Below, one piece after another: positions 10,765-39,888 of a stretch of 39,888 bases of DNA. Within the stretch, counting starts at the first letter, position 1, and every line of letters begins with the position of its first letter. This stretch comes from Tepidibacillus decaturensis (GTDB taxonomy: Bacteria; Bacillota; Bacilli; Tepidibacillales; Tepidibacillaceae), in the NCBI RefSeq assembly GCF_001561915.1, contig NZ_LSKU01000001.1:356149-396036 (forward strand), written 5' to 3'. The position numbers and the translations under genes were made by a program. The notes under the pieces were generated by a model that did no database searches, was not told the origin of the DNA, and saw only the letters and a program-made list of their open reading frames with translations.

Positions 10765-10817
10765 TGTGATAAAATTTCTTTTTAGTGAGACTAAAATGTA
10801 GGGGAGGAAAAAACAAC

Positions 10818-11984
10818 GTGCAGAAAACAGTCAATCTTTTAAGGGAGTTCTCCATTCCATTGATCTCCGGAGTTATTGTCGCCTTATTATGGGCAAATCT
10901 TTCGCCTCACAGTTATGAGACATTTGTAGAAGGCGAGTTTTTTAGTGGGATTAGCTTTCATTTTTTTGTAAATGATATCTTTATGGTTTTCTTTTTTGCG
11001 ATTGCAGCTGTAGAGATTGTTCAGAGCTTATCGCCTGGAGGAGATTTGAATCCATTAAAGAAAGCGGTTAATCCACTGATGGCTACAATGGGTGGGGTAC
11101 TTGGGCCTGTAGCTGTTTATTTACTACTAAATTCAATCATAGGATCTCCAGAATATTTAAGGGGTTGGGGGATTCCAACAGCAACTGATATTGCACTTGC
11201 ATGGCTAGTTGCTCGCTTTGTTTTTGGTGATAAACATCCAGCTGTTTCCTTTTTATTATTATTAGCGATTGCAGATGATGCCATCGGGTTAGTGATCATT
11301 GCGATTTTTTATCCTGATCCTGTGAATCCAGTAGAACCGATTTGGCTGTTAGTTACCTTAGCAGGGATGGCAATTTCCTTTATATTAAGAAAAAAAGGAG
11401 TAACCAATTATTGGCCTTATCTCCTATTAGGTGGCGTTCTTAGTTGGATAGGTTTACACAACGCGCATTTGCATCCTGCACTAGCATTAGTCGTGATTAT
11501 TCCATTTTTACCAAATCCAAAAGAAGAACATGGGCATTTATTTGAAGATGATGAGACCTCTCATACTACCCTTACGAAATTTGAACATGAGTGGAAAATC
11601 TTTGTAGATTTCGGATTATTTATGTTTGGCTTATCCAATGCCGGTGTAGAGTTTTCTGAAATTGGAACAACGACTTGGTTAGTTTTTGTCGGATTACTTG
11701 TCGGAAAAACGGTGGGAATCTTTATTTTAGGTTCTATTGCCAAAATGTTAGGTTTCCCATTACCAACAGGTATGGGAATGAAAGAATTATTCCTTGCTGG
11801 TGTCGTTGCTGCGATGGGATTAACAGTCGCACTCTTTGTGGCAGGGGCTGCGTTTACTGATCCAGTGATCCAAGGAGCAGCAAAAATGGGAGCGCTCTTT
11901 AGTGCAAGTGCTGCAATTTTTGCCTTTATCCTTGGCAAACTACTAGGTATCAAAAAGATGAAAGAAACCAGTACGCAAAATTAA
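10818..11984 (+). CDS. nhaA: Na+/H+ antiporter NhaA (paralogue 1)
   Basis: Electrogenic Na+(Li+)/H+ exchanger of the cytoplasmic membrane, 388 aa. The paired aspartates of the ion site are in LLAIADDAIGL, and the TATDIALAW segment carries the other functional Asp. GTG 10818 is chosen because GGGGAGGA at 10801-10808 lies 9 nt upstream; the frame is open for 11 more codons, but these overlap that site. It is clearly related along its full length to the second copy at 13705. Its terminator has been split by an insertion sequence. Confidence 0.93.
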   Translation: MQKTVNLLREFSIPLISGVIVALLWANLSPHSYETFVEGEFFSGISFHFFVNDIFMVFFFAIAAVEIVQSLSPGGDLNPLKKAVNPLMATMGGVLGPVAVYLLLNSIIGSPEYLRGWGIPTATDIALAWLVARFVFGDKHPAVSFLLLLAIADDAIGLVIIAIFYPDPVNPVEPIWLLVTLAGMAISFILRKKGVTNYWPYLLLGGVLSWIGLHNAHLHPALALVVIIPFLPNPKEEHGHLFEDDETSHTTLTKFEHEWKIFVDFGLFMFGLSNAGVEFSEIGTTTWLVFVGLLVGKTVGIFILGSIAKMLGFPLPTGMGMKELFLAGVVAAMGLTVALFVAGAAFTDPVIQGAAKMGALFSASAAIFAFILGKLLGIKKMKETSTQN

Positions 11985-12094: not shown

Positions 12095-12952
12095 CTAAGC
12101 AACTTGGAGAAGATGATGTCTGTATTGTGCAGGCGTCATCTTTTTTAAGTTCCACTGACCTCGATAATGATTGTAATAGATTATATAACTCTTTATCTCT
12201 CGTTTTACATCTTCTAACGTTTCACACGATTCAAAGTCCGTTTCATCTTTCAAATGCCCAAAGAACGATTCCTGCGGCGCATTATCCCAACAGTTCTCAC
12301 GACGTGACATCGATTGACCTAATCCCATTCTCTTCACAAGTATTTGAAATTGGGGGCTGGTATAATGCACTCCTTGATCCGAGTGGATGAATGCACCCTC
12401 CGCTAGTTTTCCACCTTTCTTCTTTAATTTCTTTACCGTATTTAGGGCGATATCTAGTGTTATTTTGTCAGACACTTCATAGGATAGAATTTCATTAGTT
12501 TCGGCATCTTTTATAGTAGATAAATAGGCGCGTTTTCCTTTTCCATAACTTAAATAAGTGATGTCTGTTAATAATACTTTTCCAGCGATTCCTTGCTTAA
12601 ATTCACGATTTAATAGGTTCGGTAATGTTCTATGCTCTTTTGTAGCCTTTGCCATTCTTCGATAAGGATTTGCTTTTCGAATCGGGCAAACGATGCCGTA
12701 CTTTCTCATAATGCGACGAATTCGTTTTAGGTTATAGGTAATTTGAAACTGATTTTCTAACGTCATTTTAATTTGACGTGCGCCTTTCTTACGACGACGA
12801 AAATTGAACGCTTTTAAAATAACTTCTTTTACTTCTTCGTCTGCTTGATCATAAGATTGTCTAGTAAGTTGTGCATCTGTCGAAAAATAACGATAATAAC
12901 CTGATCGAGAGACCCCAACTAATTCACAAAGATAGCGTACCATCCGATTCAA
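12095..12952 (-). CDS. IS3-family transposase OrfB (integrase domain)
   Basis: 285 aa counted from TTG 12952. The rve-type DDE catalytic core is intact: D in LLTDITYL, D in FIHSDQGVHYTS and E in QESFFGHLKDE. An N-terminal HTH_21 region (ARQIKMTLEN, IRRIMRKYGI) precedes it. The same frame stays open upstream to about 13012 and encodes EQKFQLIQYVIEKYNL, so the active product is probably the OrfAB fusion made by -1 frameshifting rather than a protein starting at 12952. Confidence 0.93.
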   Translation of the reverse strand: MNRMVRYLCELVGVSRSGYYRYFSTDAQLTRQSYDQADEEVKEVILKAFNFRRRKKGARQIKMTLENQFQITYNLKRIRRIMRKYGIVCPIRKANPYRRMAKATKEHRTLPNLLNREFKQGIAGKVLLTDITYLSYGKGKRAYLSTIKDAETNEILSYEVSDKITLDIALNTVKKLKKKGGKLAEGAFIHSDQGVHYTSPQFQILVKRMGLGQSMSRRENCWDNAPQESFFGHLKDETDFESCETLEDVKREIKSYIIYYNHYRGQWNLKKMTPAQYRHHLLQVA

Positions 12953-13002
12953 GTTGTATTTTTCTATGACATACTGGATTAACTGAAATTTTTGTTCTGC
13001 TG

Positions 13003-13446
13003 TTAATTTCCCTTTTTCTTTACCAGCATCCTTTCTGCTAAATCGATCTTTTTTAATAATTCATTTTCTGCACGTAACAATGCATTTTGTGCCTCCAATC
13101 TCGCATATTTTTCTTCTATACTTAATTCACGTTTAAATGGACGCCCTGAATGGTTTTTACGCGAATCTTCAAGTCCCGCTATACCATTTTCTTTGTAAGC
13201 AGTACGCCATCGTTTTAAAGCAGATTTAGCACGTTCTATCCCAACAATTTCAATATCAAACCCTGCATCTTCAAAGATTTGACGTGAAAATTTCCCTTCC
13301 TCATATTCTTTAACTGCCTTTGCTTTAAATTCATCTGTATATGTAATTGCTTTTTTACTAACAGATTTTACATAAGGATGCTTTTTCAATATTTCCTGCT
13401 CTTGTTTTGTAAATAATATTTTCGACATTGTTTTCCGCTCCATCAA
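13003..13446 (-). CDS. IS3-family transposase OrfA (helix-turn-helix protein)
   Basis: 147 aa. An N-terminal DNA-binding region (ITYTDEFKAKAVKEYEEGK, then ALKRWRTAYKENG) is followed by a leucine-zipper-like coiled coil (LEAQNALLRAENELLKKI) near the C terminus, the usual OrfA layout. The 3' end reads AAG AAA AAG GGA AAT TAA; the G AAA AAG run at 13012-13018 is a plausible slippery site feeding into the orfB frame, which overlaps here. Confidence 0.9.
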   Translation of the reverse strand: MMERKTMSKILFTKQEQEILKKHPYVKSVSKKAITYTDEFKAKAVKEYEEGKFSRQIFEDAGFDIEIVGIERAKSALKRWRTAYKENGIAGLEDSRKNHSGRPFKRELSIEEKYARLEAQNALLRAENELLKKIDLAERMLVKKKGN

Positions 13447-13704: not shown

Positions 13705-14895
13705 ATGTATAAAACAATTCAATTATTACGGGAATTCTCAATCCCACTTATCACGGGGGTTATCGCTGCATTAGCATGGGCCAATCTTTCCCCTGAAGGG
13801 TATCAGGCATTTGTACATTACAAAATTTTTGGCGATATTGACTTGCATTTTATTGCAAATGATATCATTATGGTGTTTTTCTTCGGTATTGCAGCTGTAG
13901 AGATCACACAAAGTGTTTTACCAGGTGGAGATTTAAATCCAATCAAAAAGGCGATTAATCCTTTATTTGCAACACTAGGTGGAGTTATAGGCCCAATTGT
14001 TGTTTTCTTTGTTCTTAATTCCATAATTGGTGACCCAGCTTATACAAATGGTTGGGGAATTCCAACTGCGACAGATATTGCATTAGCTTGGTTAATTGCA
14101 AGATTTATCTTTGGGGCAAAACATCCAGCCGTATCATTTTTGCTACTTTTGGCTATTGTAGACGATGCGATAGGCCTTGGAATTATAGCCATTTTTTATC
14201 CCGACCCAACTCACCCAGTTCAACCGATCTGGCTATTACTTACTGTTATTGGGATGGGAGTCGCTTTTATTTTAAGAAAGGTGAAGGTAAACAATTATTG
14301 GCCATATATGATTATTGGTGGGCTATTTAGTTGGTTTGGCCTATATAAAGCATCTATTCACCCAGCATTGGCATTGGTCTTTATTATCCCATTTCTACCC
14401 CATGCACCTAGGGAGAGAGACCATCTTTTTGAAGAAGATGTGGATGACCATACCCCTCTTGCTCAATTTGAGCATGAATGGAAAGCATTTGTCGATTTTG
14501 GTTTGTTCGTCTTTGGATTAACAAATGCAGGAGTTGAATTTTCTGGAATAGGTACAATTACCTGGATTATTTTCCTCTCCTTATTGTTGGGCAAAAGCTT
14601 AGGTATCTCATCTTTTGCCTTGCTAGGTGAAAAATTTGGATTTCCATTACCACAAGGAATGTCACATAAGGATGTTTTTTTAGTAGGTGTGATTGCTGGA
14701 TTAGGTTTAACAGTGGCTTTATTTGTTGCAGGTGCTGCATTTACTGACCCAACCATTCAAGGAGCAGCAAAAATGGGTGCCGTCTTTAGTGCCTTTATTG
14801 CGCTTATTGCTTTTGTGTTGGCTAGGTTTTTTAAAGTAAATAAAGAACCAAATGTTACTTTAAATAAAAGGAACATTAGGTTGAAAATGTTTTAA
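13705..14895 (+). CDS. nhaA: Na+/H+ antiporter NhaA (paralogue 2)
   Basis: 396 aa, NhaA family. Its ion-site aspartates are in LLLAIVDDAIGL, where paralogue 1 has ADDA, and TATDIALAW is identical. The two copies align without gaps over most of their length and are roughly two-thirds identical by eye, with a divergent C-terminal tail here (KEPNVTLNKRNIRLKMF). Excellent ribosome site AAAAAGGAGGAG before ATG 13705. It probably arose by tandem duplication before the IS landed between the copies. Confidence 0.94.
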   Translation: MYKTIQLLREFSIPLITGVIAALAWANLSPEGYQAFVHYKIFGDIDLHFIANDIIMVFFFGIAAVEITQSVLPGGDLNPIKKAINPLFATLGGVIGPIVVFFVLNSIIGDPAYTNGWGIPTATDIALAWLIARFIFGAKHPAVSFLLLLAIVDDAIGLGIIAIFYPDPTHPVQPIWLLLTVIGMGVAFILRKVKVNNYWPYMIIGGLFSWFGLYKASIHPALALVFIIPFLPHAPRERDHLFEEDVDDHTPLAQFEHEWKAFVDFGLFVFGLTNAGVEFSGIGTITWIIFLSLLLGKSLGISSFALLGEKFGFPLPQGMSHKDVFLVGVIAGLGLTVALFVAGAAFTDPTIQGAAKMGAVFSAFIALIAFVLARFFKVNKEPNVTLNKRNIRLKMF

Positions 14896-22991: not shown

Positions 22992-23672
22992 GTGGCTACA
23001 CAATTTGCAGTCATTGGTTTGGGACGTTTTGGTTCAAGTTTAGCTGGAACACTATATGAAATGGGCTATGAAGTACTAGGAATTGATTCAAAAGAGGAAA
23101 AAGTTCAAGAAATGGTCAATCGGGCTACACATGTATTACAAGTAGATTCTACAGATGAAGTTGCTTTAAAAACCATTGGGATTCGTAATTTTGATGTGGT
23201 CATTGTGGCGATTGGTGAAGATATCCAATCAAGCATTTTGACTACATTGATTCTTAAAGACTTAGGAGTGCCAAGAATTGTAGTAAAAGCCCAAAATGAG
23301 CTTCATGGAAAGGTGTTGGAAAAAATTGGTGCAGATAAAATTATCTACCCAGAACGAGACATGGGGATCCGTGTCGTTCACCAGCTTATTACTCCTAATA
23401 TCCTTGATTATATAGAACTAGCACCAAACTATAACATTGTAGAGATTGCGATTGGACCAGATATCGTAGGAAAGACCCTACTTGAATTAGATATACGCGC
23501 TAAATTTGGCTTAAATGTGATGGCAATCAAATCTAATGAGCAGCTAAAAATTGCACCTCAAGCCAATGATCAATTTCAAGAAGGTGACATTTTAGTATTA
23601 GTTGGTCATATTGATGATATAAAACGGTTCGAAGAATATTCAAATGGTAAAAAGAAAAAATTAAAGATATAA
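22992..23672 (+). CDS. K+ uptake regulatory subunit, KtrA/KtrC type (RCK) 2
   Basis: 226 aa. Same RCK_N plus RCK_C layout as the protein at 16535, with GLGRFGSSLAGTLYEMGYEV at the N terminus and PERDMGIRVVHQLITPNILDYIEL at the domain junction; the two are strongly alike throughout. GGAGGAG ribosome site ahead of GTG 22992. It is monocistronic between a terminator and the regulator gene, and no channel subunit is nearby. It could be KtrA or KtrC; sequence alone does not decide. Confidence 0.92.
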   Translation: MATQFAVIGLGRFGSSLAGTLYEMGYEVLGIDSKEEKVQEMVNRATHVLQVDSTDEVALKTIGIRNFDVVIVAIGEDIQSSILTTLILKDLGVPRIVVKAQNELHGKVLEKIGADKIIYPERDMGIRVVHQLITPNILDYIELAPNYNIVEIAIGPDIVGKTLLELDIRAKFGLNVMAIKSNEQLKIAPQANDQFQEGDILVLVGHIDDIKRFEEYSNGKKKKLKI

Positions 23673-23736: not shown

Positions 23737-24006
23737 ATGAATTACTCCCCAGAGATTAAGAATCGCTTAAAGAGAGTAGAGGGACAGGTAAGAGGCGTCC
23801 TCCGAATGATGGAAGAAGGACAAGAATGCAATGATGTCATTCACCAATTGTCTGCGGTACGTAATGCTGTTGACCGTGTGATTGTTCACGTCATTGGCAC
23901 AGATATGAGTAAATGTTTAATGGATGAAATGCAAAAAGAGGACGAACAACGTGATACGGATAAAATCATTAAAGACGCCATACAATTACTATTAAAAACA
24001 AGGTAG
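23737..24006 (+). CDS. CsoR/RcnR-family regulator, CstR-like
   Basis: 89 aa, all-helical DUF156 repressor. The DNA-binding N-terminal helix has NRLKRVEGQVRG. Cys31 and Cys60 are present with the family spacing. The Cu(I) ligand His that precedes the second Cys by four residues in CsoR is Asp56 here, so a copper-sensing role is unlikely. A two-Cys site without the His resembles persulfide sensors of the CstR type; that assignment is inference. Candidate targets in this window are the rhodanese and TauE genes at 33604-34930. GGAGGTGG ribosome site. Confidence 0.85.
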   Translation: MNYSPEIKNRLKRVEGQVRGVLRMMEEGQECNDVIHQLSAVRNAVDRVIVHVIGTDMSKCLMDEMQKEDEQRDTDKIIKDAIQLLLKTR

Positions 24007-29417: not shown

Positions 29418-29789
29418 GTGGCTGAAACAAAACGTTATGCAGAAACCTGTAGTTGTACCATCATTCATAATGATGTAGTCACGAATGTGAAAGAAGCAAT
29501 GCCAGAAGAAGAAACACTTTATGATTTAGCAGAACTATTTAAGGTGTTTGGTGACACGACGAGGATTAAAATTTTATATGCCTTATTTGAAGCTGAAATG
29601 TGTGTATGTGATATCGCAGCCCTTCTTGGGATGAATCAATCGGCGATCTCACACCAGCTTAAGGTCTTAAAACAAGCTAGATTAGTAAGAAATCGTAGAG
29701 AAGGGAAAATTGTTTACTATTCATTAGATGATTATCATATTAAACAGATTTTTGATCAAGGGTTAGTCCATATTAATGAAAGGTCATAG
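29418..29789 (+). CDS. cadC: ArsR/SmtB-family metal sensor (CadC-like)
   Basis: 123 aa winged-helix repressor. Both metal sites are recognisable. The alpha-3/N site comprises Cys11, Cys13 and the MCVCD pair Cys62/Cys64; the alpha-5 site is Asp105, His107, His118 and Glu121 in the DxH-x10-HxxE pattern. The recognition helix is in NQSAISHQLKVLKQARLV. Thiol sites favour Cd/Pb and the alpha-5 site favours Zn in studied proteins. It starts the operon with the P-type ATPase, after an operator and promoter. Confidence 0.93.
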   Translation: MAETKRYAETCSCTIIHNDVVTNVKEAMPEEETLYDLAELFKVFGDTTRIKILYALFEAEMCVCDIAALLGMNQSAISHQLKVLKQARLVRNRREGKIVYYSLDDYHIKQIFDQGLVHINERS

Positions 29790-29812
29790 ACGAGAGCGAG
29801 GAGGAAGGAGAA

Positions 29813-32098
29813 ATGAGTTCGACAACGATAATAGAAAAAAGAGAACTTATTTTGGAAGGTTTGGATTGTGCAAGCTGTGCAGCAAAAATAGAAGCAAAAG
29901 TAAAAGAGTTAGATGGAATTAAAGATGGGTCGATCAATTTTGTTACACAGGTATTAACTCTAGAAATTAATAAACCTGATCGGACTGATTATTTGATATC
30001 TGAGGTTAAAGCAATTGTCAATGAATTAGAGCCAGATGTGATCATTCAGGAAAAAACAACGAAAAAACTAACGAAAGCTTCTAAACTATTTATTGAAGTA
30101 AATGATAAAAGCCATTTACCTAGTCTTATTGAAGAAGCAAAAAAAATTGTAGTGAATATTGAACCAGATGTGAAAGTACATGAGGAAATAAAAACAGCAA
30201 ATAAGCATTCACTTCAAGATGACCATGACCATGGCCATGGTCATGGTGAAGCAGGGGAAATGAAGAAAGAGTTAATTCAATTAGGGATTGGTACAGCGTT
30301 TTTTGCCATAGCCATTGCTTTTAAGTTTACTTTTTGGATGGAGTTTCTATTATATTTCATCAGTTACATCTTAATTGGTGGAGAGGTTTTAGTAAGGGCA
30401 GGGAAAAATATTAAACGAGGTCAAATATTTGACGAAAATTTCTTAATGAGTATAGCCACCATTGGCGCCTTTGCAATAGGAGAGTTTCCAGAAGGGGTAG
30501 CCGTTATGCTGTTCTATCAAGTTGGTGAATTATTTCAAGACTTAGCTGTAAATCGATCCCGTAAATCGATCGCTGCATTAATGGATATTCGTCCTGACTA
30601 TGCCAATCTAAGAATAGGTGAAGAGGTTAAAAGGGTTTCTCCAGAAGAAGTAAACGTTGGGGATGTCATTATTGTTAAACCGGGTGAAAGAGTGCCGCTC
30701 GATGGCAAAATCATTGAAGGCAGCTCAATGGTTGATACGTCCGCTTTAACTGGCGAATCAATTCCTAGGGAGGTAGAGGTAGAAAGTGAAATCCTTGGTG
30801 GGTTTATCAATAAAAATGGGCTTATTGCTGTTGAAGTCACGAAAGAATTTGGAGAATCAACTGTTTCTAAAATCTTAGATTTGGTGCAAAATGCAAGTAG
30901 TAAAAAAGCTCCGACAGAGAATTTTATAACGAAATTTTCAAGATACTATACGCCCATTGTTGTTGTAATTGCTCTCTTATTGGCTCTAATACCCCCACTT
31001 GTGGTTGAAGGGGCTACTTTTTCACAGTGGATCTATCGAGCCCTTATTTTCTTGGTCATTTCCTGTCCATGCGCATTGGTGATTTCCATCCCATTAGGAT
31101 TTTTCGGAGGAATTGGCGGAGCATCCAGAAATGGAATTTTAGTTAAAGGTGGAAATTATTTAGAGGCATTGAATAACGTAGATATAGTTGTCTTTGATAA
31201 AACAGGCACGCTTACAAAAGGAGTATTTAATGTAACAGAGATTCATGCGAAAGAATCGATGTCAAACGATGAATTGTTGGAAATAGCAGCCTATGCTGAG
31301 AACTATTCCAACCATCCAATCGCCTTATCCATTTTAAAAGCTTATGGTAAAGAAGTGAACAGAGACGAGATTGAAAACTATGAAGAGATTAGTGGTTATG
31401 GTATAAAGGTTAGTGTTAAGGGGAAAGAGATCATTGCTGGTAATCGTAAATTGATGACCAAAGAAGGTATTGAATTTGAACAGGTAGACGCACCTGGAAC
31501 GATCGTTCATATTGCAATAGATCAGCAATACGCTGGTTATATTGTGATTTCTGATGAGATAAAAGAGGATTCAATTGATGCCATTCGCTCTTTAAAAGAA
31601 ATTGGAGTAAGAAAAACAGTGATGTTAACCGGAGATATTCAAAATGTTGGAGAAAAAGTTGCTACACAACTAGGATTAGATGAAGTTCATGCCGAGTTGC
31701 TTCCAGATCAAAAAGTAGAGAAATTAGAAATTCTTGATGCGAAAAAGCCTCATAAAGGAAATTTAGTTTTTGTCGGCGATGGAATCAATGATGCACCTGT
31801 ATTGGCAAGGGCAGATATTGGGATCGCAATGGGTGGTTTAGGTTCTGATGCAGCGATAGAGGCTGCGGACGTTGTCATCATGACTGATGAACCTTCAAAA
31901 ATTGCTACTGCCATCAAAATTGCAAGACACACCAGAAAGATTGTATGGCAAAATATTATTTTTGCATTAGGTATGAAATTATTTGTACTTGTACTTGGTG
32001 CAGGTGGTTTAGCAACTATGTGGGAAGCGGTGTTTGCTGATGTTGGTGTTGCATTACTTGCAGTATTAAATGCTATGAGAATACCCCTTAAAAAGTAG
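29813..32098 (+). CDS. cadA: Zn2+/Cd2+/Pb2+-exporting P-type ATPase
   Basis: 761 aa P1B-type ATPase of the ZntA/CadA type. An N-terminal heavy-metal domain carries CASC (residues 19-22). A second ferredoxin-like stretch without Cys follows, then the His-rich linker HDHGHGHGE (~138-146). The transmembrane metal site is the CPC motif in SCPCALVISIP (~417-419), the phosphorylation site is DKTGT (~462), and MLTGD and GDGINDAPVLA complete the ATPase core. It exports divalent soft metals from the cytosol. It follows the CadC-like gene by 23 bp. Confidence 0.95.
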   Translation: MSSTTIIEKRELILEGLDCASCAAKIEAKVKELDGIKDGSINFVTQVLTLEINKPDRTDYLISEVKAIVNELEPDVIIQEKTTKKLTKASKLFIEVNDKSHLPSLIEEAKKIVVNIEPDVKVHEEIKTANKHSLQDDHDHGHGHGEAGEMKKELIQLGIGTAFFAIAIAFKFTFWMEFLLYFISYILIGGEVLVRAGKNIKRGQIFDENFLMSIATIGAFAIGEFPEGVAVMLFYQVGELFQDLAVNRSRKSIAALMDIRPDYANLRIGEEVKRVSPEEVNVGDVIIVKPGERVPLDGKIIEGSSMVDTSALTGESIPREVEVESEILGGFINKNGLIAVEVTKEFGESTVSKILDLVQNASSKKAPTENFITKFSRYYTPIVVVIALLLALIPPLVVEGATFSQWIYRALIFLVISCPCALVISIPLGFFGGIGGASRNGILVKGGNYLEALNNVDIVVFDKTGTLTKGVFNVTEIHAKESMSNDELLEIAAYAENYSNHPIALSILKAYGKEVNRDEIENYEEISGYGIKVSVKGKEIIAGNRKLMTKEGIEFEQVDAPGTIVHIAIDQQYAGYIVISDEIKEDSIDAIRSLKEIGVRKTVMLTGDIQNVGEKVATQLGLDEVHAELLPDQKVEKLEILDAKKPHKGNLVFVGDGINDAPVLARADIGIAMGGLGSDAAIEAADVVIMTDEPSKIATAIKIARHTRKIVWQNIIFALGMKLFVLVLGAGGLATMWEAVFADVGVALLAVLNAMRIPLKK

Positions 32099-32318: not shown

Positions 32319-33215
32319 TTATTCCTCCCCAAATAAATTGGTATTCATCACTGAATGGCTCTTTTTCACAGTTTCTAATAGTGGTGTTTGGATAACCGCT
32401 TCAACTAATTTATCGTAATCGTTAAGTATAGGAACCAATGTGACTACAATTCTCCCTTTTTCATAATCTTTTCTTGTGAAATGGTAACGTTTTAAACCAA
32501 TTGCTCTCGTTGCCTCAAATAGCATCGCTTGACGTTGGCCAAAATGATCGAGTGCAATGCGAAAATGATCTTTTTTGGGATAAACGACAACGGCCATGCC
32601 TTCCTTTTGAAATAACTCACGACTATTATCGCCACCAAGTAAGTTACTGACGAAAATGTCATCGACATAAAGCTCAGAACCTTTTATTTCAATTTTCCCT
32701 GGCTTTACTTCTGCAATATCACCAACAGTTTTTCCCTTTGAAAACCGTTTTAGAATATAGATGAGAGAAAAACCAACGATTACTGACCCTATCACCTTAG
32801 GGACATATGAAAAGGGTAATATGTACATGGTTAGTGCAGTAAAGAGAGATACAATGAGTGAAAAATAACTTCTAGCCTCAAACGTTTTTGCAATTCCATC
32901 AATGTAAGCTGCACCTCGGAAAGTGTATTCCGTCTCTTCTAAATCTTTTAGGCTATCTCTCTCCATTTTTCTTATATCGCGAAATTGCTGAATGGCTAGA
33001 ACAAGGAAAGTGACGGCTACATAATTCTTGGACAACAGTGCTGGAATCGCCACTGCTCCTAAAGATGCAGCAATAAAACCCGTAATTAAATGAATCAGAT
33101 AGCCATTTGGATAACTAGGATATTGGCGAAAGTCTTCCTTTAGCATCAGGATTCGAGAAATGGTTCCAATCAAAATTGCAGTAAGAATTGTGATGAGATC
33201 ACGTGTTTCTAACAT
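32319..33215 (-). CDS. YIEGIA-family membrane protein
   Basis: 298 aa. Three or more membrane segments occupy the N-terminal half, and the family-naming motif appears as AAYIDGIAKTFEARSY at about residue 105. A further hydrophobic hairpin (SLFTALTMYILPFSY, VIGSVIVGFSLIYIL) precedes a soluble C-terminal domain. The family is restricted to spore-forming Firmicutes and is linked to sporulation. First gene of a two-gene minus-strand operon. Confidence 0.8.
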   Translation of the reverse strand: MLETRDLITILTAILIGTISRILMLKEDFRQYPSYPNGYLIHLITGFIAASLGAVAIPALLSKNYVAVTFLVLAIQQFRDIRKMERDSLKDLEETEYTFRGAAYIDGIAKTFEARSYFSLIVSLFTALTMYILPFSYVPKVIGSVIVGFSLIYILKRFSKGKTVGDIAEVKPGKIEIKGSELYVDDIFVSNLLGGDNSRELFQKEGMAVVVYPKKDHFRIALDHFGQRQAMLFEATRAIGLKRYHFTRKDYEKGRIVVTLVPILNDYDKLVEAVIQTPLLETVKKSHSVMNTNLFGEE

Positions 33216-33520
33216 TTTTTCACCTGAATTTTTATAGTATAATTTATGTTTACTATTTTTTCTTTCCTTCCATAAAATATTCAGATGAATTTTCTGAATA
33301 CAAATTCATTATTTCTCCATATTTTGCATATATTGTAGTAGATGTAAAGGTTTGAAGGCATTCTCCCTTACGCCCTTCCATGAAAAGTGACTGTAAATAG
33401 TCACTTTTTTTGTATAACAAATAAGAAGACGTTTTAGTTAAATGATTCAACTTGCCCAAGAGATTATGCTTAAATAGCACAAACTTGATTTATCACTTGT
33501 GAAAGGAAAGGTGAAGAAAG
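33216..33520. other. Non-coding gap with bidirectional terminator
   Basis: About 300 bp between the YIEGIA operon and the merA-like remnant. It holds the hairpin at 33383-33412. On the minus strand a 42-codon frame (MEGRKGECLQTFTSTTIYAK onward, 33378 to 33253) has some protein-like character but no ribosome site, so it is not called a gene. Confidence 0.45.
33383..33412. terminator. Bidirectional terminator
   Basis: AAAAGTGACT (33383-33392) pairs perfectly with AGTCACTTTT (33399-33408), followed by T4 on the plus strand and by a shorter T run on the minus strand. Confidence 0.7.
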
Positions 33521-33590
33521 ATGTATGATTTCGTTATCATAGGTTCGGGAAGTGCTTCGTTCTCTGCAGCCATTAAAGCAGTTGAATTCG
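33521..33590 (+). pseudogene. Truncated 5' end of a merA-like flavoprotein disulfide reductase
   Basis: About 23 codons starting at ATG 33521 (with AAAGG upstream) encode MYDFVIIGSGSASFSAAIKA-VEF. This is the FAD-binding beta-alpha-beta start (GxGxxxxxAA) of mercuric reductase-like enzymes. After about 33588 the similarity stops, the rest of the enzyme, including the CxxxxC redox motif, is absent, and the sequence runs into the convergent tauE gene. The frame continues to 33991 only as antisense of tauE. It is a recombination remnant. Confidence 0.75.
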
Positions 33591-33603
33591 ATGACAGTCG
33601 CCT

Positions 33604-35204: not shown

Positions 35205-35789
35205 ATGTCTTATGCTTTTTGGGTTTTTGTTGCCATAATTGTGCTGCTTTCGATCGCAGTCATTCTCTATGTAGTAAGAAAACGCGAAAAGATTACCTGT
35301 ATGACAGGGATGATGATTGCGATGACATTGGGAATGATGGTGGGAATATTATCTGGAACATTGATTGGAATTCTCTATGCCGGTAATCTATTTTTTTCTA
35401 CATTAATTGCGATGGCCATTGGTGGTGCTGTTGGATTAATTACAGGAGCTCCTGTCACATTGATGGCAATGATGGATGGATTGCTTTCAGGTTTAATGGG
35501 AGGTATGATGGGAGCCATGCTAGGAGATATGATTTCCACAAGTAAACCAGACACGATGATGAAGATCTTGCTTGTACTGTTTATAGGGATTATTTTAATT
35601 CTGTTTTACATGATGATTGATGAATTAAATAAAGGAGATCAACCTCGTTTTTTTCGAAACCCACTATTGATGGGGATGATCATTCTTGTGTTTTTCTTTC
35701 TTTTTAACCAGATGGGACATATTGTGACTGTTGAATCAGAAATGGAGCAAAACAATCATAATCATCTAGAAATGGAGCAGAGAAAATAA
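35205..35789 (+). CDS. Met-rich multi-pass membrane protein, unknown function
   Basis: 194 aa with about six hydrophobic segments. Gly/Met-rich helices occur in the middle (LSGLMGGMMGAMLGDM), and the C-terminal tail is hydrophilic and His/Asn-rich (NNHNHLEMEQ). I do not recognise a family. Clustered Met in membrane helices plus His in the tail would suit soft-metal handling, but that is only a suggestion. It is monocistronic: a terminator follows, and it lies next to the rhodanese module in divergent orientation and upstream of the SHOCT cluster. Confidence 0.75.
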   Translation: MSYAFWVFVAIIVLLSIAVILYVVRKREKITCMTGMMIAMTLGMMVGILSGTLIGILYAGNLFFSTLIAMAIGGAVGLITGAPVTLMAMMDGLLSGLMGGMMGAMLGDMISTSKPDTMMKILLVLFIGIILILFYMMIDELNKGDQPRFFRNPLLMGMIILVFFFLFNQMGHIVTVESEMEQNNHNHLEMEQRK

Positions 35790-35808
35790 CTAAAAAAATT
35801 CTTTAAAT

Positions 35809-35842
35809 CCTGAGTGTTCAATGAATATTCAGGTTTTTTTTG
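35809..35842 (+). terminator. Terminator after the Met-rich membrane protein gene
   Basis: CCTGAGTGTTCA and TGAATATTCAGG (35809-35833) pair with G-U wobbles, followed by T8. Confidence 0.82.
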
Positions 35843-35977
35843 CTTTCTTTACAGATTCTCCATACTCTTTGGGAAAGATGGAATCATCACCACCAAAATT
35901 TAGCCAAATTTTCTAAACAAAATAAATGGGAAAGAAATCTCCCTTGAAATTGGTGGAATTGGCGAAAAACAGCGGTT
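35843..35977. other. Gap ahead of the SHOCT operon promoters
   Basis: No gene recognised. One frame reads KINGKEISLEIGGIGEKQRF before a stop (about 35920-35980), protein-like but without start or ribosome site; possibly a remnant. The promoters and operators of the SHOCT operon follow. Confidence 0.3.
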
Positions 35978-36013
35978 TTGACATGACAGGAAGAATAATT
36001 AGAATGATTCTAA
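35978..36013 (+). promoter_or_regulatory. Promoter P1 of the SHOCT operon with a PerR/Fur-type box
   Basis: TTGACA (35978-35983), 16-bp spacer, TAGAAT (36000-36005). The -10 is embedded in TTAGAATGATTCTAA (35999-36013), a perfect 7-1-7 inverted repeat with the AATNATT core of Fur-superfamily boxes. It is closest to the PerR form (TTAnAATnATTnTAA). Binding would block P1, so induction by peroxide or metal limitation is predicted. Confidence 0.72.
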
Positions 36014-36026
36014 AAAAATTAAATTC

Positions 36027-36063
36027 TTCATTTTTTCTTCATTTTTGCTCGTTATTCTATAAC
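36027..36063 (+). promoter_or_regulatory. Promoter P2 of the SHOCT operon with 11-bp direct repeats
   Basis: TTCATTTTTTC (36027-36037) and TTCATTTTTGC (36038-36048) are tandem 11-bp repeats; the second starts 20 bp before TATAAC (36058-36063). The same arrangement precedes the genes at 37086 and 38137. Eleven-bp direct repeats over the -35 are typical of OmpR-family response regulators. Confidence 0.6.
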
Positions 36064-36128
36064 TGTAAAGAAGATAGCACCTTAAAGGGAGCAAAAAAAC
36101 AAATAAATGAAAAAAGGAGGAAAAAGAA

Positions 36129-36317
36129 ATGTTACTTTTGCTTATTTTGGTGATTGGGTTTTATCTATATAAAACAGGTGAACTTCAAAATATCTTAAAC
36201 AAGATTCAAGGAAATGGAAGTAATAATTCGAATGAGGCAAGACGGATCATTGATATTCGTTTTGCAAAAGGTGAAATCTCTGCAGAAGAGTATAACAAGT
36301 TAAAAAATATTTTGTAA
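36129..36317 (+). CDS. SHOCT-domain small membrane protein 1
   Basis: 62 aa. An N-terminal hydrophobic helix (residues 1-14) is followed by a Gly/Asn/Ser linker (~28-35) and the SHOCT domain (ARRIIDIRFAKGEISAEEYN, ~37-62). It is predicted to be a bitopic protein with the SHOCT tail in the cytoplasm. AAAAAAGGAGG is an excellent ribosome site. First gene of a likely operon with the genes at 36389 and 36773. The family function is unknown; SHOCT is thought to mediate oligomerisation or protein contacts. Confidence 0.85.
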   Translation: MLLLLILVIGFYLYKTGELQNILNKIQGNGSNNSNEARRIIDIRFAKGEISAEEYNKLKNIL

Positions 36318-36388
36318 TTTTGTAACAAACTATTTGAATTCCCTTTAGGGTTATCTCCATTAAAACAAAGTAAAAGGAGGAAACGAAG

Positions 36389-36754
36389 ATGATGTTTGGC
36401 GGAGGACATATGGGCGGTTTTGGAGGACCAGGCTTCGGTGGATATGGAAATGGATATGGGTATAATAATGGCTGGGGATATGGTCCCGGCGGTGGATATG
36501 GAAATGGATTTGGTTATGGAATGATGTCTGGTTGGAATCTAACAGGAATTTTATTCCTCGTACTTGTTGGATTTCTTGTCTACCTTTTGATTAAAAGAAG
36601 TAAGCAACATGGTGCATTTTCGCAACCAAGTCAACTTCTAGCACCTACAAAAGCAACTTCAAATGAAGCAGTAGAAATAGCCAAGCTTAGATATGTTCGT
36701 GGGGAAATTTCTTATGACGAATATCAAGAAATTGTAAAAGTCATCAATTCATAA
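36389..36754 (+). CDS. SHOCT-domain membrane protein 2 with Gly/Tyr-rich head
   Basis: 121 aa. Residues 1-47 are a low-complexity Gly/Tyr/Asn/Met stretch (GYGNGYGYNNGWGYGPGGGY), ~48-68 a membrane helix (LTGILFLVLVGFLVYLLI), and ~90-121 the SHOCT domain (EIAKLRYVRGEISYDEYQEI). The head would face outside. AAAGGAGG lies 8 nt before ATG 36389. It is the largest of the SHOCT proteins in the cluster. Confidence 0.85.
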   Translation: MMFGGGHMGGFGGPGFGGYGNGYGYNNGWGYGPGGGYGNGFGYGMMSGWNLTGILFLVLVGFLVYLLIKRSKQHGAFSQPSQLLAPTKATSNEAVEIAKLRYVRGEISYDEYQEIVKVINS

Positions 36755-36772
36755 TGAAAGGGGATTGGACAA

Positions 36773-37003
36773 GTGCTAAATTTAATTCTAACGATTATTG
36801 TTGCCTATTACCTTATCAAAACTGGAGATTTATTTAAACTTCTAAGAAAAGCACAGAAATTTGTGACTGAGTTTTTCACTTCCATCAAGCAAGAGACGCA
36901 AAGTAGCAAAAAAACAGAAGATCCAGTTGAGATCTTAAAAGTCCGTTTTGCTAAAGGTGAAATTAGTCAAAGTGAATTCGAAAAAATGAAAGAAAGTTTT
37001 TAA
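36773..37003 (+). CDS. SHOCT-domain small membrane protein 3
   Basis: 76 aa. An N-terminal membrane helix (residues 1-17) is followed by a basic amphipathic helix (FKLLRKAQKFVTEFFTSIKQ) and the SHOCT domain (VEILKVRFAKGEISQSEFEK). GTG 36773 follows AAAGGGGA at 8 nt. It shares the ...YLIKTGDLF start with protein 1 (FYLYKTGELQ), suggesting duplication. No terminator was seen before the next promoter. Confidence 0.83.
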   Translation: MLNLILTIIVAYYLIKTGDLFKLLRKAQKFVTEFFTSIKQETQSSKKTEDPVEILKVRFAKGEISQSEFEKMKESF

Positions 37004-37005
37004 GT

Positions 37006-37042
37006 TCCATAAAGTCTTCATAATTGAGTGTTACAGTATAAG
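37006..37042 (+). promoter_or_regulatory. Promoter with 11-bp direct repeats ahead of SHOCT protein 4
   Basis: TCCATAAAGTC (37006-37016) and TTCATAATTGA (37017-37027) are 11 bp apart; the second starts 20 bp before TATAAG (37037-37042). A TATAAT also occurs at 37043-37048. The layout equals that at 36027-36063 and 38077-38113. Confidence 0.5.
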
Positions 37043-37085
37043 TATAATAATTTAAGCAAAACTATCATAAATGGAGGTTTTCATC

Positions 37086-37328
37086 ATGGGACCTGGCTTT
37101 GGAGCTTTCGGAGGATGTGGATTAGGAGGTGGATTTGGAATGATGTTCTTAGGTTTGATTGTTATTGGAGTAATCATCTACCTATTGGTTAAAGGGAACC
37201 AAAATGGTACAACAGTAAGAAATGTAACAGCTACAAACTCTGATGCATTAGAAATTGCGAAATCAAGACTAGCTAAAGGTGAAATTACAACCGAAGAATT
37301 TGAAAACATCAAGAAAAACTTATTATAA
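37086..37328 (+). CDS. SHOCT-domain small membrane protein 4 with Gly-rich head
   Basis: 80 aa. A short Gly-rich head (MGPGFGAFGGCGLGGGFG) precedes a membrane helix (residues ~19-36), then a polar linker and the SHOCT domain (EIAKSRLAKGEITTEEFENI). ATG 37086 is used because GGAGG (37073-37077) lies 8 nt upstream; the in-frame ATG at 37071 overlaps that site. It looks like a shortened version of protein 2. The next gene starts 34 bp later and is probably cotranscribed. Confidence 0.83.
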   Translation: MGPGFGAFGGCGLGGGFGMMFLGLIVIGVIIYLLVKGNQNGTTVRNVTATNSDALEIAKSRLAKGEITTEEFENIKKNLL

Positions 37329-37362
37329 GAATATAAATAATGAAAGTGAAAGGAAGAGTATA

Positions 37363-37767
37363 ATGAAAAAGAAATTATTAACTGGTGTATTAGCCACCGC
37401 GTTAGTTTTAGGAGTAGGAACAACTGCATATGTTAGTTATGCTAAAGGAGTCGATTACCGTTCCTTTATGCAACAACAAGGTTTTAACGTAAATCAAATG
37501 GAAGGGTTTATGGAACAACAAGGAATCGATGTAGACCAGATGTATGAATTGATGAATTCTGGTGCAAGTTATGAAGATATGCAAAAGTTTATGCAAGATC
37601 AAAACATCAATTTTGGACAAATGTATAAATATATGCAACAAGTATATCCAGATTTAAAAGCAGATGATTTTAAAGCTCATTATGAAAGCATGCATGGAAC
37701 TGTAGGTTCCTCTAATAGCAATAATTTTACTGGAATGAATGGTTTCAGTGGTATGATGGGTCAATAA
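37363..37767 (+). CDS. Secreted Met/Gln-repeat protein
   Basis: 134 aa. A Sec signal peptide (KKKLLTGVLATALVLGVG, cleavage near SYA-KG, residue ~27) is followed by about five degenerate 13-16-residue repeats. Each begins F/Y/L-M and several have the form FMxxQGI(D/N)xxQM (FMQQQGFNVNQMEG, FMEQQGIDVDQMYE, FMQDQNINFGQMYK). The Ser/Asn/Gly/Met-rich tail ends GMMGQ. I know no family for it. Regular Met suggests binding of Cu(I) or another soft metal, or redox buffering, outside the cell; this is inference. Cotranscribed with SHOCT protein 4 and ended by a terminator. Confidence 0.78.
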   Translation: MKKKLLTGVLATALVLGVGTTAYVSYAKGVDYRSFMQQQGFNVNQMEGFMEQQGIDVDQMYELMNSGASYEDMQKFMQDQNINFGQMYKYMQQVYPDLKADDFKAHYESMHGTVGSSNSNNFTGMNGFSGMMGQ

Positions 37768-37783
37768 AATGATTTCTTTTATA

Positions 37784-37815
37784 AAACAGCAACCTATACA
37801 AGGTTGCTGTTTTTC
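37784..37815 (+). terminator. Terminator after the Met/Gln-repeat gene
   Basis: AAACAGCAACCT (37784-37795) pairs perfectly with AGGTTGCTGTTT (37801-37812), then T. Confidence 0.9.
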
Positions 37816-37822
37816 AAAATGA

Positions 37823-37975
37823 CTACATGCCTGTTTTAAATGTTTTACAATCGGTTTCTTCAGATCTTCTTGCCATTTCTTGTTTTGCAACAATATAAAT
37901 AGAGTCAGCATTACACAAATTGCCATCTCCCCAGTAGTGGCAATTCTTTACTTCACATAACACATCTTGAGCCAA
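37823..37975 (-). CDS. DUF1540 protein
   Basis: 50 aa, read from TTG 37975 with AAAGGAGGG 7 nt upstream to TAG 37823. The sequence (QDVLCEVKNCHYWGDGNLCN, then TDCKTF near the end) has the four-Cys pattern of DUF1540: Cys7, Cys12, Cys21 and Cys43, presumably a metal-binding knot. DUF1540 proteins are common in spore-forming Firmicutes; function unknown. A longer minus-strand frame over the same DNA lacks these features and is not the gene. Confidence 0.85.
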   Translation of the reverse strand: MAQDVLCEVKNCHYWGDGNLCNADSIYIVAKQEMARRSEETDCKTFKTGM

Positions 37976-38076
37976 AGTTCTCCCTCCTTTCTTCCTTAAA
38001 ATAAACTGATTAATATTTTTTTATACTTTAATTTTTAGTGCAAATCATATTTTTACAGATTTGGAAATAAAATAGA

Positions 38077-38113
38077 TTCATTCTTTTTTCACACTTTCAG
38101 GGTAAACTAGATA
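38077..38113 (+). promoter_or_regulatory. Promoter with 11-bp direct repeats ahead of SHOCT protein 5
   Basis: TTCATTCTTTT (38077-38087) and TTCACACTTTC (38088-38098) are tandem 11-bp repeats; the second starts 20 bp before TAGATA (38108-38113). Third instance of the arrangement in this window. Confidence 0.5.
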
Positions 38114-38136
38114 ACAAAGAGGGAGGAGGATTTATC

Positions 38137-38379
38137 ATGGGATTAGGATGTATGTTTGGACATTTAATGCATGGTCGTCATTCACATTCAGATCACGATC
38201 AACGTCGATATCAAGAGCAAGAACATCAGCAAAATCATAATCACAACCATAATCATAATGAACATCAAAATCATGGAAAACAATCGTCAGATCCATTAGA
38301 AGTTCTTAAGTTAAGATTTGTTAAAGGGGAAATAACGGAAGAAGAATATCGCAGAATGAAAGAAGTATTAAGTGAATAG
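38137..38379 (+). CDS. SHOCT-domain protein 5 with His-rich linker
   Basis: 80 aa. A short hydrophobic start (MGLGCMFGHLMHG) is followed by a His/Asn/Gln-rich stretch (HSHSDHDQRR, then alternating NH repeats to about residue 48) and the SHOCT domain (EVLKLRFVKGEITEEEYRRM). Unlike the others it has no full membrane helix. The His run could bind Zn, Ni or Cu. GGGAGGAGG ribosome site; own promoter with the shared repeats and own terminator. Confidence 0.84.
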   Translation: MGLGCMFGHLMHGRHSHSDHDQRRYQEQEHQQNHNHNHNHNEHQNHGKQSSDPLEVLKLRFVKGEITEEEYRRMKEVLSE

Positions 38380-38389
38380 ATCGTATGAT

Positions 38390-38429
38390 TGACCATTAGG
38401 ATTTGATCCTATATGGTCATTTTTTTTTT
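38390..38429 (+). terminator. Terminator after SHOCT protein 5
   Basis: TGACCATTAGGAT (38390-38402) pairs with ATCCTATATGGTCA (38406-38419) with a 1-nt bulge, followed by T9-10. Confidence 0.92.
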
Positions 38430-38536
38430 GACTTAAAACAGTGGATTCATACTTTCTACATATTTGCCAAGTAAAAATAATTTATCTCTTATTTTTAAAA
38501 ATAGTTGCAACTAGAAAAATGGAAAGAGGGGTTAAA

Positions 38537-39334
38537 GTGAGGGTTATTTTATTTCATATTGGGAGTTACGGAGTACGGTCTTATGGCTTAGTCGTTGCAT
38601 TAGCAATTTTACTGGGTATGGGTGTTGCATATTTTTTAGCGAGAAACACCAAGTATCGTGATCATGTCGTCAATTTGTCCATGTATAGCATCATTGGAGC
38701 AATTGTTGGCGCCAGAATTTGGCACGTATTTTTCTTTCAATGGCCATATTACTCAAAAAATTTAGATCAAATCTTTACATTTTGGAATGGGGGAATTGCC
38801 ATACAAGGGGCAATTATTGGTGGAATTCTAACCGCTATCATTTATACGAGATACCACAAGCTTAATTTTTGGGAATTGGCTGATATCATGGCTCCGGCAA
38901 TCATTTTGGGACAAGCGGTTGGTCGCATTGCTTGTTTCTTAAATGGAGATGCGTTTGGTGCACCAACTAACTCTGGATTTGGAATCGTTTATCCTCCTGG
39001 AACGATGGCCTATGATACTTATGGTTCACAACCATTGTGGCCTGCAGAAGTTTGGGAAGGACAATGGGATTTGATTGTCTTCGGAATTTTAATTGCATTG
39101 AGAAATGCTAATGTGAAATGGACAACAGGATTTATTTTCTTAGCCTATAATATTCTTTATTCCATTGGACGCTTTTCGCTTGAATTCTTAAGAGGGGACT
39201 CATTTAGATATTTGTTTAATTGGACAGCAGGGCAGTGGACAAGTGTGATCGTTATTTTTCTCTCAATTATTCTTATGGGATATTTATATTACAAAGAGGG
39301 AAAAAATCAAACGATTGTTGGTGAAGTAGCATAG
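38537..39334 (+). CDS. Divergent prolipoprotein diacylglyceryl transferase (Lgt-like)
   Basis: 265 aa, seven or so membrane helices. Lgt features: FWNGGIAIQGAIIGG (the HGG-region), GQAVGRIACFLNGDAFG (Lgt signature, where mainstream Firmicute Lgt has GNFxNQEAFG) and the Arg/Glu segment SIGRFSLEFLRGD. Standard Lgt moves diacylglycerol from phosphatidylglycerol to lipobox Cys. The altered signature and the metal/stress context suggest an accessory paralogue rather than the housekeeping enzyme. GTG 38537 follows AGAGGGG; the frame is open further upstream without a ribosome site. Confidence 0.82.
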   Translation: MRVILFHIGSYGVRSYGLVVALAILLGMGVAYFLARNTKYRDHVVNLSMYSIIGAIVGARIWHVFFFQWPYYSKNLDQIFTFWNGGIAIQGAIIGGILTAIIYTRYHKLNFWELADIMAPAIILGQAVGRIACFLNGDAFGAPTNSGFGIVYPPGTMAYDTYGSQPLWPAEVWEGQWDLIVFGILIALRNANVKWTTGFIFLAYNILYSIGRFSLEFLRGDSFRYLFNWTAGQWTSVIVIFLSIILMGYLYYKEGKNQTIVGEVA

Positions 39335-39377
39335 TTTGCGATCAGTGACTGAGATGGTCATATACCATTTTCATGAG

Positions 39378-39428
39378 ACCCACAAAACAATCGAAGTAGC
39401 TTTTAAGGAAGTTATCACTTTTGTGGGT
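39378..39428 (+). repeat. 51-nt hairpin repeat, copy 2
   Basis: ACCCACAAAA (39378-39387) pairs perfectly with TTTTGTGGGT (39419-39428). Related to the element at 3811-3861 by arm sequence, length and internal blocks. It lies about 45 bp after the Lgt-like gene and may also act as its terminator. Confidence 0.6.
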
Positions 39429-39554
39429 TTCCTTATGTAAAGATTGGTACATTCTACATCGTTTCTTTATATTTACTGGTTATCATTGATAATGAAAAGT
39501 AAAGAATCAAATTAAATTATTGCCTGTTCTAGGCATTGGTGGTGGTTATATGCG

Positions 39555-39806
39555 ATGAAAAAATACTTTTCTGATATTTTAAATATCATATTAATGATTA
39601 TCGGTGTATCATTTTTACTCTTTGTATTAAAAATGATTTGGTTTCCTCCTTCTTCAATGGGTTTAATAATGGATTCAGCAATGATGTACCATCACATGGG
39701 AACATGGCTGAAAGGGACTACTATTTTATTTCTTCTCTTTTTTGGTATTGGAGCACTAATTTGGTTTATTATCGATAAATTTTTGAACAAGTTTAGAAAA
39801 AAGTGA
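39555..39806 (+). CDS. Small two-helix membrane protein with Met/His loop
   Basis: 83 aa. Two membrane helices (residues ~8-27 and ~52-72) flank a loop rich in Met and His (SSMGLIMDSAMMYHHMGTW). Basic C terminus KFLNKFRKK. A weak GGTGGTGG ribosome site precedes ATG 39555. No family recognised. The Met/His loop resembles the composition of the other membrane proteins in this cluster. Confidence 0.65.
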   Translation: MKKYFSDILNIILMIIGVSFLLFVLKMIWFPPSSMGLIMDSAMMYHHMGTWLKGTTILFLLFFGIGALIWFIIDKFLNKFRKK

Positions 39807-39822
39807 GCTCACTCCACTTTTT
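39798..39822 (+). terminator. Terminator overlapping the last gene
   Basis: AAAAAGTG (39798-39805) pairs with CACTTTTT (39815-39822) and overlaps the stop codon at 39804-39806. The remaining bases to 39888 show nothing recognisable. Confidence 0.75.
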
Positions 39823-39888
39823 CTTCATATTTAATGGTTACACTAAATTTAGTAAAAAATATTAGCCATATTTTTTACCTTCCCAAGT

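Follow-up and report, generated by a model that had tools for sequence, protein, structure and literature searches.

SHOCT (PF09851, formerly DUF2078) is a widely distributed domain whose function is unassigned, and it is largely missing from model organisms. It forms a C-terminal bihelical tail on tiny single-helix membrane proteins with Gly/Met/Tyr/Trp heads, which are widespread in Bacillota and archaea, and a membrane SHOCT protein of Haloferax is induced by silver (PMC10694973). Among described two-component systems, CopRS of Corynebacterium glutamicum regulates a TlpA-like thioredoxin as well as secreted proteins whose function is unknown, and the CopR site TGAAGATTTnnTGAAGATTT was proven by electrophoretic mobility shift assay and mutation (PMC3140484); for CssRS of Bacillus subtilis, the CssR octamer is TTTTCACA (PMC6749698). 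Here we analyzed a 39,888-nt stretch of the Tepidibacillus decaturensis genome (the window), in which five small SHOCT-tailed genes (A to E) and a gene for a secreted Met/Gln-repeat protein (M) form a cluster (Table 1). The cluster probably forms, although we say so with much reserve, the envelope arm of a stress regulon of the copper(I)/silver type under an autoregulated OmpR-family two-component system, as judged from promoter pattern and gene neighborhood.

The cluster genes and their conservation

The initial annotation, made from the sequence of the window alone, had proposed five SHOCT-tailed open reading frames (ORFs) with a secreted Met/Gln-repeat protein amid them, and all were present at the starts given in Table 1. 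The heads do differ as it had claimed, but they are of three kinds only (A/C, B/D and E), A/C and B/D being paralogues: A and C are paired by the KTG[ED]L that follows the membrane helix in both, B and D are paralogues by architecture with a Gly head plus a helix in each, and E has a His-rich stretch and no membrane helix. In the Pfam scan, C, D and E scored 33.3, 36.5 and 36.1 bits, above the curated PF09851 cut-off of 27 bits; A and B fell below it (23.7 and 14.1 bits), yet their tails are alignable and are retained in the A and B orthologues. The whole 2.96-Mb genome (G000) contains five SHOCT matches, and since four of them lie within the 2.3 kb of the cluster, the clustering is beyond chance. 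Good ribosome-binding sites precede every one of the five ORFs and M. Orthologue pairs differ chiefly at third codon positions (differences by codon position are 15/8/30 for A against L016, 31/20/51 for B and 20/12/38 for D against L017; L numbers denote loci), and therefore, judging by these sequence comparisons, the five SHOCT ORFs and M are real, selected genes. The head of D keeps its invariant Cys and a GGGFG among orthologues, and an AlphaFold2 model of D, of modest confidence (pLDDT 65), placed a membrane helix at residues 15-40 followed by helices at 49-63 and 69-79. No Rfam match that could represent an RNA leader common to the units was found within the cluster.

Conservation beyond the strain, which the initial annotation had set as a check, was found in other genera of the family. 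Parts of the cluster are present in three of four further genomes sampled (G001, G002 and G004, the last being Vulcanibacillus modesticaldus). G001 carries M, A, B and D; G002 carries M, A, B and C, plus M, E and D at a contig end; and Vulcanibacillus has four SHOCT loci, one of which reads box-A-B-C-X, where the box is the promoter element described below and X a Met-rich membrane protein whose gene sits just upstream of A in the window and directly after A-B-C in Vulcanibacillus (L162). The gene order A-B-C is kept in three genera. The fourth genome, G003, is the one member of the sample with no SHOCT match, D-type included, and neither M nor CopA was matched there, a co-absence that is indicative only because this assembly is in 360 contigs and five genomes were compared. 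In a distant family, tandem SHOCT genes with a bare helix and a Gly/Tyr head mirror A-B (L081:9837-10430 and L106:9792-10282).

Table 1. Features of the cluster and its borders, in window coordinates.
Feature	Position	Strand	Description	Orthologues or remarks
A	36129..36317	+	Single helix and SHOCT tail, 62 aa	L015, L016, L162, L163
B	36389..36754	+	Gly/Tyr-rich head, helix and weak SHOCT tail, 121 aa	L015, L016, L162, L163
C	36773..37003	+	Single helix and SHOCT tail, 76 aa, paralogue of A	L016, L162
D	37086..37328	+	Gly head with invariant Cys, helix and SHOCT tail, 80 aa	L015, L017, L018, L019
M	37363..37767	+	Secreted Met/Gln-repeat protein, 134 aa, signal peptide	L015-L019
E	38137..38379	+	Soluble His-rich protein, SHOCT tail, 80 aa	L017, L018
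Box A	36027..36058	+	TTCATttttttcTTCAT direct repeat and TATTCT	Exact match
Box D	37006..37037	+	TCCATaaagtcTTCAT and TACAGT	One mismatch
Box E	38077..38108	+	TTCATtcttttTTCAC and TAAACT	Exact match
Possible further box	39813..39844	+		One mismatch; gene beyond in masked stretch
X	35205..35789	+	Met-rich multi-helix membrane protein, 194 aa, separate unit	Homologue L162:7362-7949
Hairpin after X	35809-35833		Terminator-like	Terminator scan
Second Lgt copy	38537..39334	+	Prolipoprotein diacylglyceryl transferase	TIGR00544 above cut-off
Small membrane protein	39555..39806	+	Contains PPSSMG...MMYHHM	Paralogue L159:11245-11484, after box-controlled regulator/kinase pair

A promoter box common to the transcription units

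Alignment of upstream regions yielded a box ahead of the units starting at A, D and E and of their orthologues. It consists of TTCAY-N6-TTCAY, an 11-bp direct repeat, and a TANNNT located 26 bp from where the first repeat starts. Its position relative to the -10-like TANNNT places the repeat over the -35 region, as is usual for promoters activated by OmpR-family regulators. The window has two exact matches against 0.03 expected, and five at one mismatch against 0.66 expected, a number that none of the shuffles reached. A one-mismatch box at 33305-33336 is upstream of an ORF (33521-33595) whose start, MYDFVIIGSGSASFSAAIKAVE, presumably resembles an FAD-disulfide reductase such as mercuric reductase before the frame departs; this ORF is possibly a decayed remnant.

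Across the five family genomes, 22 exact sites were found against one for the reversed control pattern, and the consensus of 21 family sites shows a half-site TCTTCA every 11 bp (core TCTTCA-N5-TCTTCA); position 2 is C in 31 of the 42 half-sites. In G000, six of nine exact sites fall within 58 kb (1.9% of the genome) around the cluster and two copA genes, and when up to one mismatch is tolerated the same region has 12 of 72 (p ~1.5e-8); even without boxes A and E, which had been used in defining the box, four of the seven other exact sites remain there (~5e-6 by hand), although these p values flatter, the limits of the region having been drawn once the hits were known. Upstream of distant SHOCT genes, the exact repeat with a spacer of 6 occurs in 4 of 32 cases against 5 of 986 in the background, which is suggestive only because with one mismatch allowed the off-spacing controls (spacers 3 and 8) reach 7 of 32.

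The G000 box precedes a putative DUF302-like gene (two sites), a PrsA-like peptidylprolyl isomerase and an OmpR-type regulator/kinase operon (L159). Farther along this operon are genes for a paralogue of the small protein at 39555, for a ResA/TlpA-like thioredoxin and for an Lgt-like protein. Two regulator genes of L159 are at 9165-9854 and 1967-2671. A divergent regulator/kinase pair and a secreted protein flank another exact site, at G000:C1:2025283. In G001, the regulator/kinase operon stands directly behind copA-copZ in the order CsoR-CopA-CopZ-box-regulator-kinase (L160), and another site precedes M. Vulcanibacillus sites precede E, D-M, a regulator (one mismatch), a cupredoxin (one mismatch), a DUF302-like gene and a methyltransferase. 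One kind of SAM-dependent methyltransferase recurs beside SHOCT genes or under the box (L167:5190-5804, L024:2283-2909 and L108:9422-10039).

Copper genes around the cluster

In three of the four family genomes possessing clusters, the cluster is near CopA, CsoR, CopZ or cupredoxin. G000 encodes one CopA (TIGR01511 above cut-off) ~4 kb beyond the end of the window and another, accompanied by CopZ, at G000:C1:433-436 kb. G001 has A-B-D and then CsoR-CopA-CopZ, and at a Vulcanibacillus locus (L018) the neighbors of E-D-M are a cupredoxin (PF00127), a regulator/kinase pair, cytochrome b, CsoR, CopA and CopZ. Similar loci occur in distant bacteria and archaea, not everywhere: SHOCT genes accompany CsoR-CopA (L102 and L106), CopZ-CopA with a Spy-like Metal_resist protein (L082), a YHS-domain protein with Lgt, CcdA and CopA (L079), and two M-like secreted proteins with CcdA and CopA (L108). 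They also stand beside copper ATPase, cupredoxin-like or Met-rich genes in Methanosarcina, Saprospiraceae, Dehalococcoides and a deltaproteobacterium, with copper ATPases in Methanosarcina and Saprospiraceae. Since copper-pump genes adjoin and the promoters carry a common regulator-binding pattern, the cluster proteins appear to belong to a response to copper or cell-envelope stress. Together, the conservation across genera, the box common to the transcription units and the metal/envelope surroundings bear out the view of the initial annotation that these genes belong together.

The secreted repeat protein M

Mature M has 107 residues, with 13 Met, 14 Gln, 2 His and no Cys, arranged in repeats of ~14 residues with Met pairs at i,i+4. 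This MX3M spacing is dominant (4 observed against 1.4 expected, p 0.035), and three homologues have 2, 7 and 8 such pairs. The predicted structure is a string of short helices of low confidence (pLDDT 55), and a PDB fold search found nothing (best E 5). A sequence profile of M matched designed repeat toroids only, which we took as low-complexity repeat similarity, and weak repeat matches to UDPGP, VapD and Nuf2 (NCBIfam/Pfam) were dismissed. The Pfam scan gave no LTXXQ/Metal_resist profile match (PF07813, PF13801), and by the MX2H/HXnM metal motifs M does not qualify as SilE-like. Searches beyond the family returned signal-peptide-level or marginal matches only, apart from a plausible analogue in G106 (L108) that adjoins a kinase and CopA. 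The M family, which occurs in four genera of Tepidibacillaceae and has no clear match in databases, would represent a novel type of extracytoplasmic metal binder if the metal-binding reading is true.

Flanking genes

The cluster unit spans 35205-39844 and thus exceeds the region first described on both sides. A housekeeping Lgt is encoded elsewhere in the genome, and the cluster-side copy is found only in G000 and G002, adjoining SHOCT genes. A diverged Lgt-like protein at L159:12052-12774, like the accessory Lgt, sits in the metal island, and Lgt genes recur near SHOCT genes also in L079, L082, L109 and L025. Between M and E, a DUF1540 Cys-rich mini-protein (PF07561; 37823-37975, minus strand) is encoded convergently. 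Farther to the left, 32319-33215 (minus strand) encodes a YIEGIA-like membrane protein that is also near the cluster in G001 and Vulcanibacillus (L015, L022), 29418-32098 (plus strand) an ArsR-type regulator with a CadA-like pump, and the region at 23740 a short CsoR-like match (34% over 90 aa) adjoining a TrkA-like gene (22992-23672). Two paralogous NhaA-like antiporter genes (10785-11984 and 13705-14895) surround a two-ORF transposase unit (12095-13446), which we take to be similar to an IS3-type element.

Weighing the interpretations

In the mechanism that we propose for a copper-type regulon, in which the metal signal, the binding regulator, metal binding by M and E, the membrane topology and the tail partners are all predicted, a sensor kinase would detect excess metal, or its damage, outside the membrane, and the phosphorylated regulator would bind TTCAY-N6-TTCAY overlapping the -35 region. 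The regulator would then switch on the units A(-B-C), D-M and E, together with the PrsA-like foldase, the DUF302-like protein and its own operon, and in relatives cupredoxin. M, as a string of helical Met repeats, may bind Cu(I) outside the membrane, where the SHOCT mini-membrane proteins would expose their Gly/Met/Tyr heads; at the inner face, the SHOCT hairpin would probably dock to a partner, for instance CopA or the kinase, with E as a putative cytoplasmic His-rich metal-binding partner. Several results weigh against this reading. The promoters counted for the box are those from which it was read, and the dense 58-kb region had no bounds before the hits were seen. The regulators score ~180-197 bits against the TIGR01387 heavy-metal regulator cut-off of 279.2, and M is poor in His, lacks Cys and matches no family. 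CopA lies within 10 kb of 6 of ~39 distant SHOCT loci in the phylum, ~8-20 times the genome-size expectation if 1-3 copA per 3 Mb are assumed; against 20 real control windows, however, the excess is not significant (p 0.24), and since 33 of these ~39 loci have no CopA within that distance, copper is not the only setting of SHOCT genes.

A possible but rather unlikely alternative is a general secretion/envelope-stress regulon of the CssRS/CpxAR type, in which the kinase would sense misfolded exported protein or heat, metal being one trigger, and the SHOCT mini-proteins would stabilize or signal from the membrane. It would account for the box ahead of the PrsA-like foldase and for the kinase genes found in the vicinity of distant SHOCT loci (12 of 40, compared with 1 of 20 controls; p 0.02), many of them without CopA. 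Box E contains the CssR octamer, which is similar to one half-site, while most half-sites read TCTTCAT, and the C at position 2 brings the half-site nearer to CopR than to CssR; moreover, the recurrent neighbors in the family are copper genes, and no HtrA was noticed under the exact box, htrA promoters not having been specifically searched. The initial annotation had proposed that the SHOCT tails bind one another under the membrane and thereby gather different heads into one assembly. We consider this improbable: the tails are common to five proteins whose genes are co-localized and apparently co-regulated by the box, and assembly or anchoring roles were predicted for SHOCT-like domains in a later comparative paper (PMC11237479), but in the one published self-association test SHOCT fused to Cd4d3+4 remained monomeric (PMC3581485), and SHOCT mini-proteins are mostly single in other genomes. 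Least probable of all, in our view, is that the locus is a duplication hotspot where small membrane genes have their ancestry in common but do not function jointly; the paralogy of A/C and B/D and tandem SHOCT pairs elsewhere would suit it, whereas separate promoters with an identical box type, the A-B-C order in three genera and purifying selection argue against it.

A broader version of the copper reading, which we put forward as speculative and doubtful, is that SHOCT mini-membrane proteins are general accessory subunits of copper/envelope stress systems in bacteria and archaea, with the hairpin docking on the copper pump or sensor kinase and with Cu(I) being handled by the outer head together with the secreted MX3M protein. 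If true, it would give the SHOCT domain its first function. The finding of SHOCT mini-membrane forms in what appears to be a defined two-component regulon with a copper-type operator suggests a concrete inducer, regulator and list of partners.

Comparison with known systems

The statement in the initial annotation that no system of this form had been described was too strong, as SHOCT mini-membrane proteins are common, 91 of the 299 phylum genomes having matches, and copper two-component regulons with secreted proteins are on record (PMC3140484). The closest likeness is to CopRS: the family box and the CopR site have cores that are reverse complements of each other, and both systems combine an autoregulated regulator/kinase pair (here putatively so), secreted proteins, a TlpA-like thioredoxin and a copper ATPase nearby. 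CopRS has one box site, in contrast to the many here, where a SHOCT array, the Met-repeat protein and the PrsA-like foldase are found in addition and the copper response would follow by analogy. Because the regulators are under the TIGR01387 cut-off, the resemblance concerns how the system may work, not membership. The CssR site is the next closest, and CssRS shares an autoregulated OmpR-type system, octamer-like half-sites and a foldase link; it differs in the half-site, the copper-gene neighborhood and the HtrA result given above. M recalls SilE and Spy/CpxP as a small secreted helical protein of a putative metal/envelope regulon, with MX3M in place of MX2H and no LTXXQ/Metal_resist signature. 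Finally, the SHOCT proteins themselves have the tail and heads typical of PF09851 mini-membrane proteins, and what sets this locus apart is that three kinds of them are arrayed with a secreted Met-repeat protein under one promoter box.

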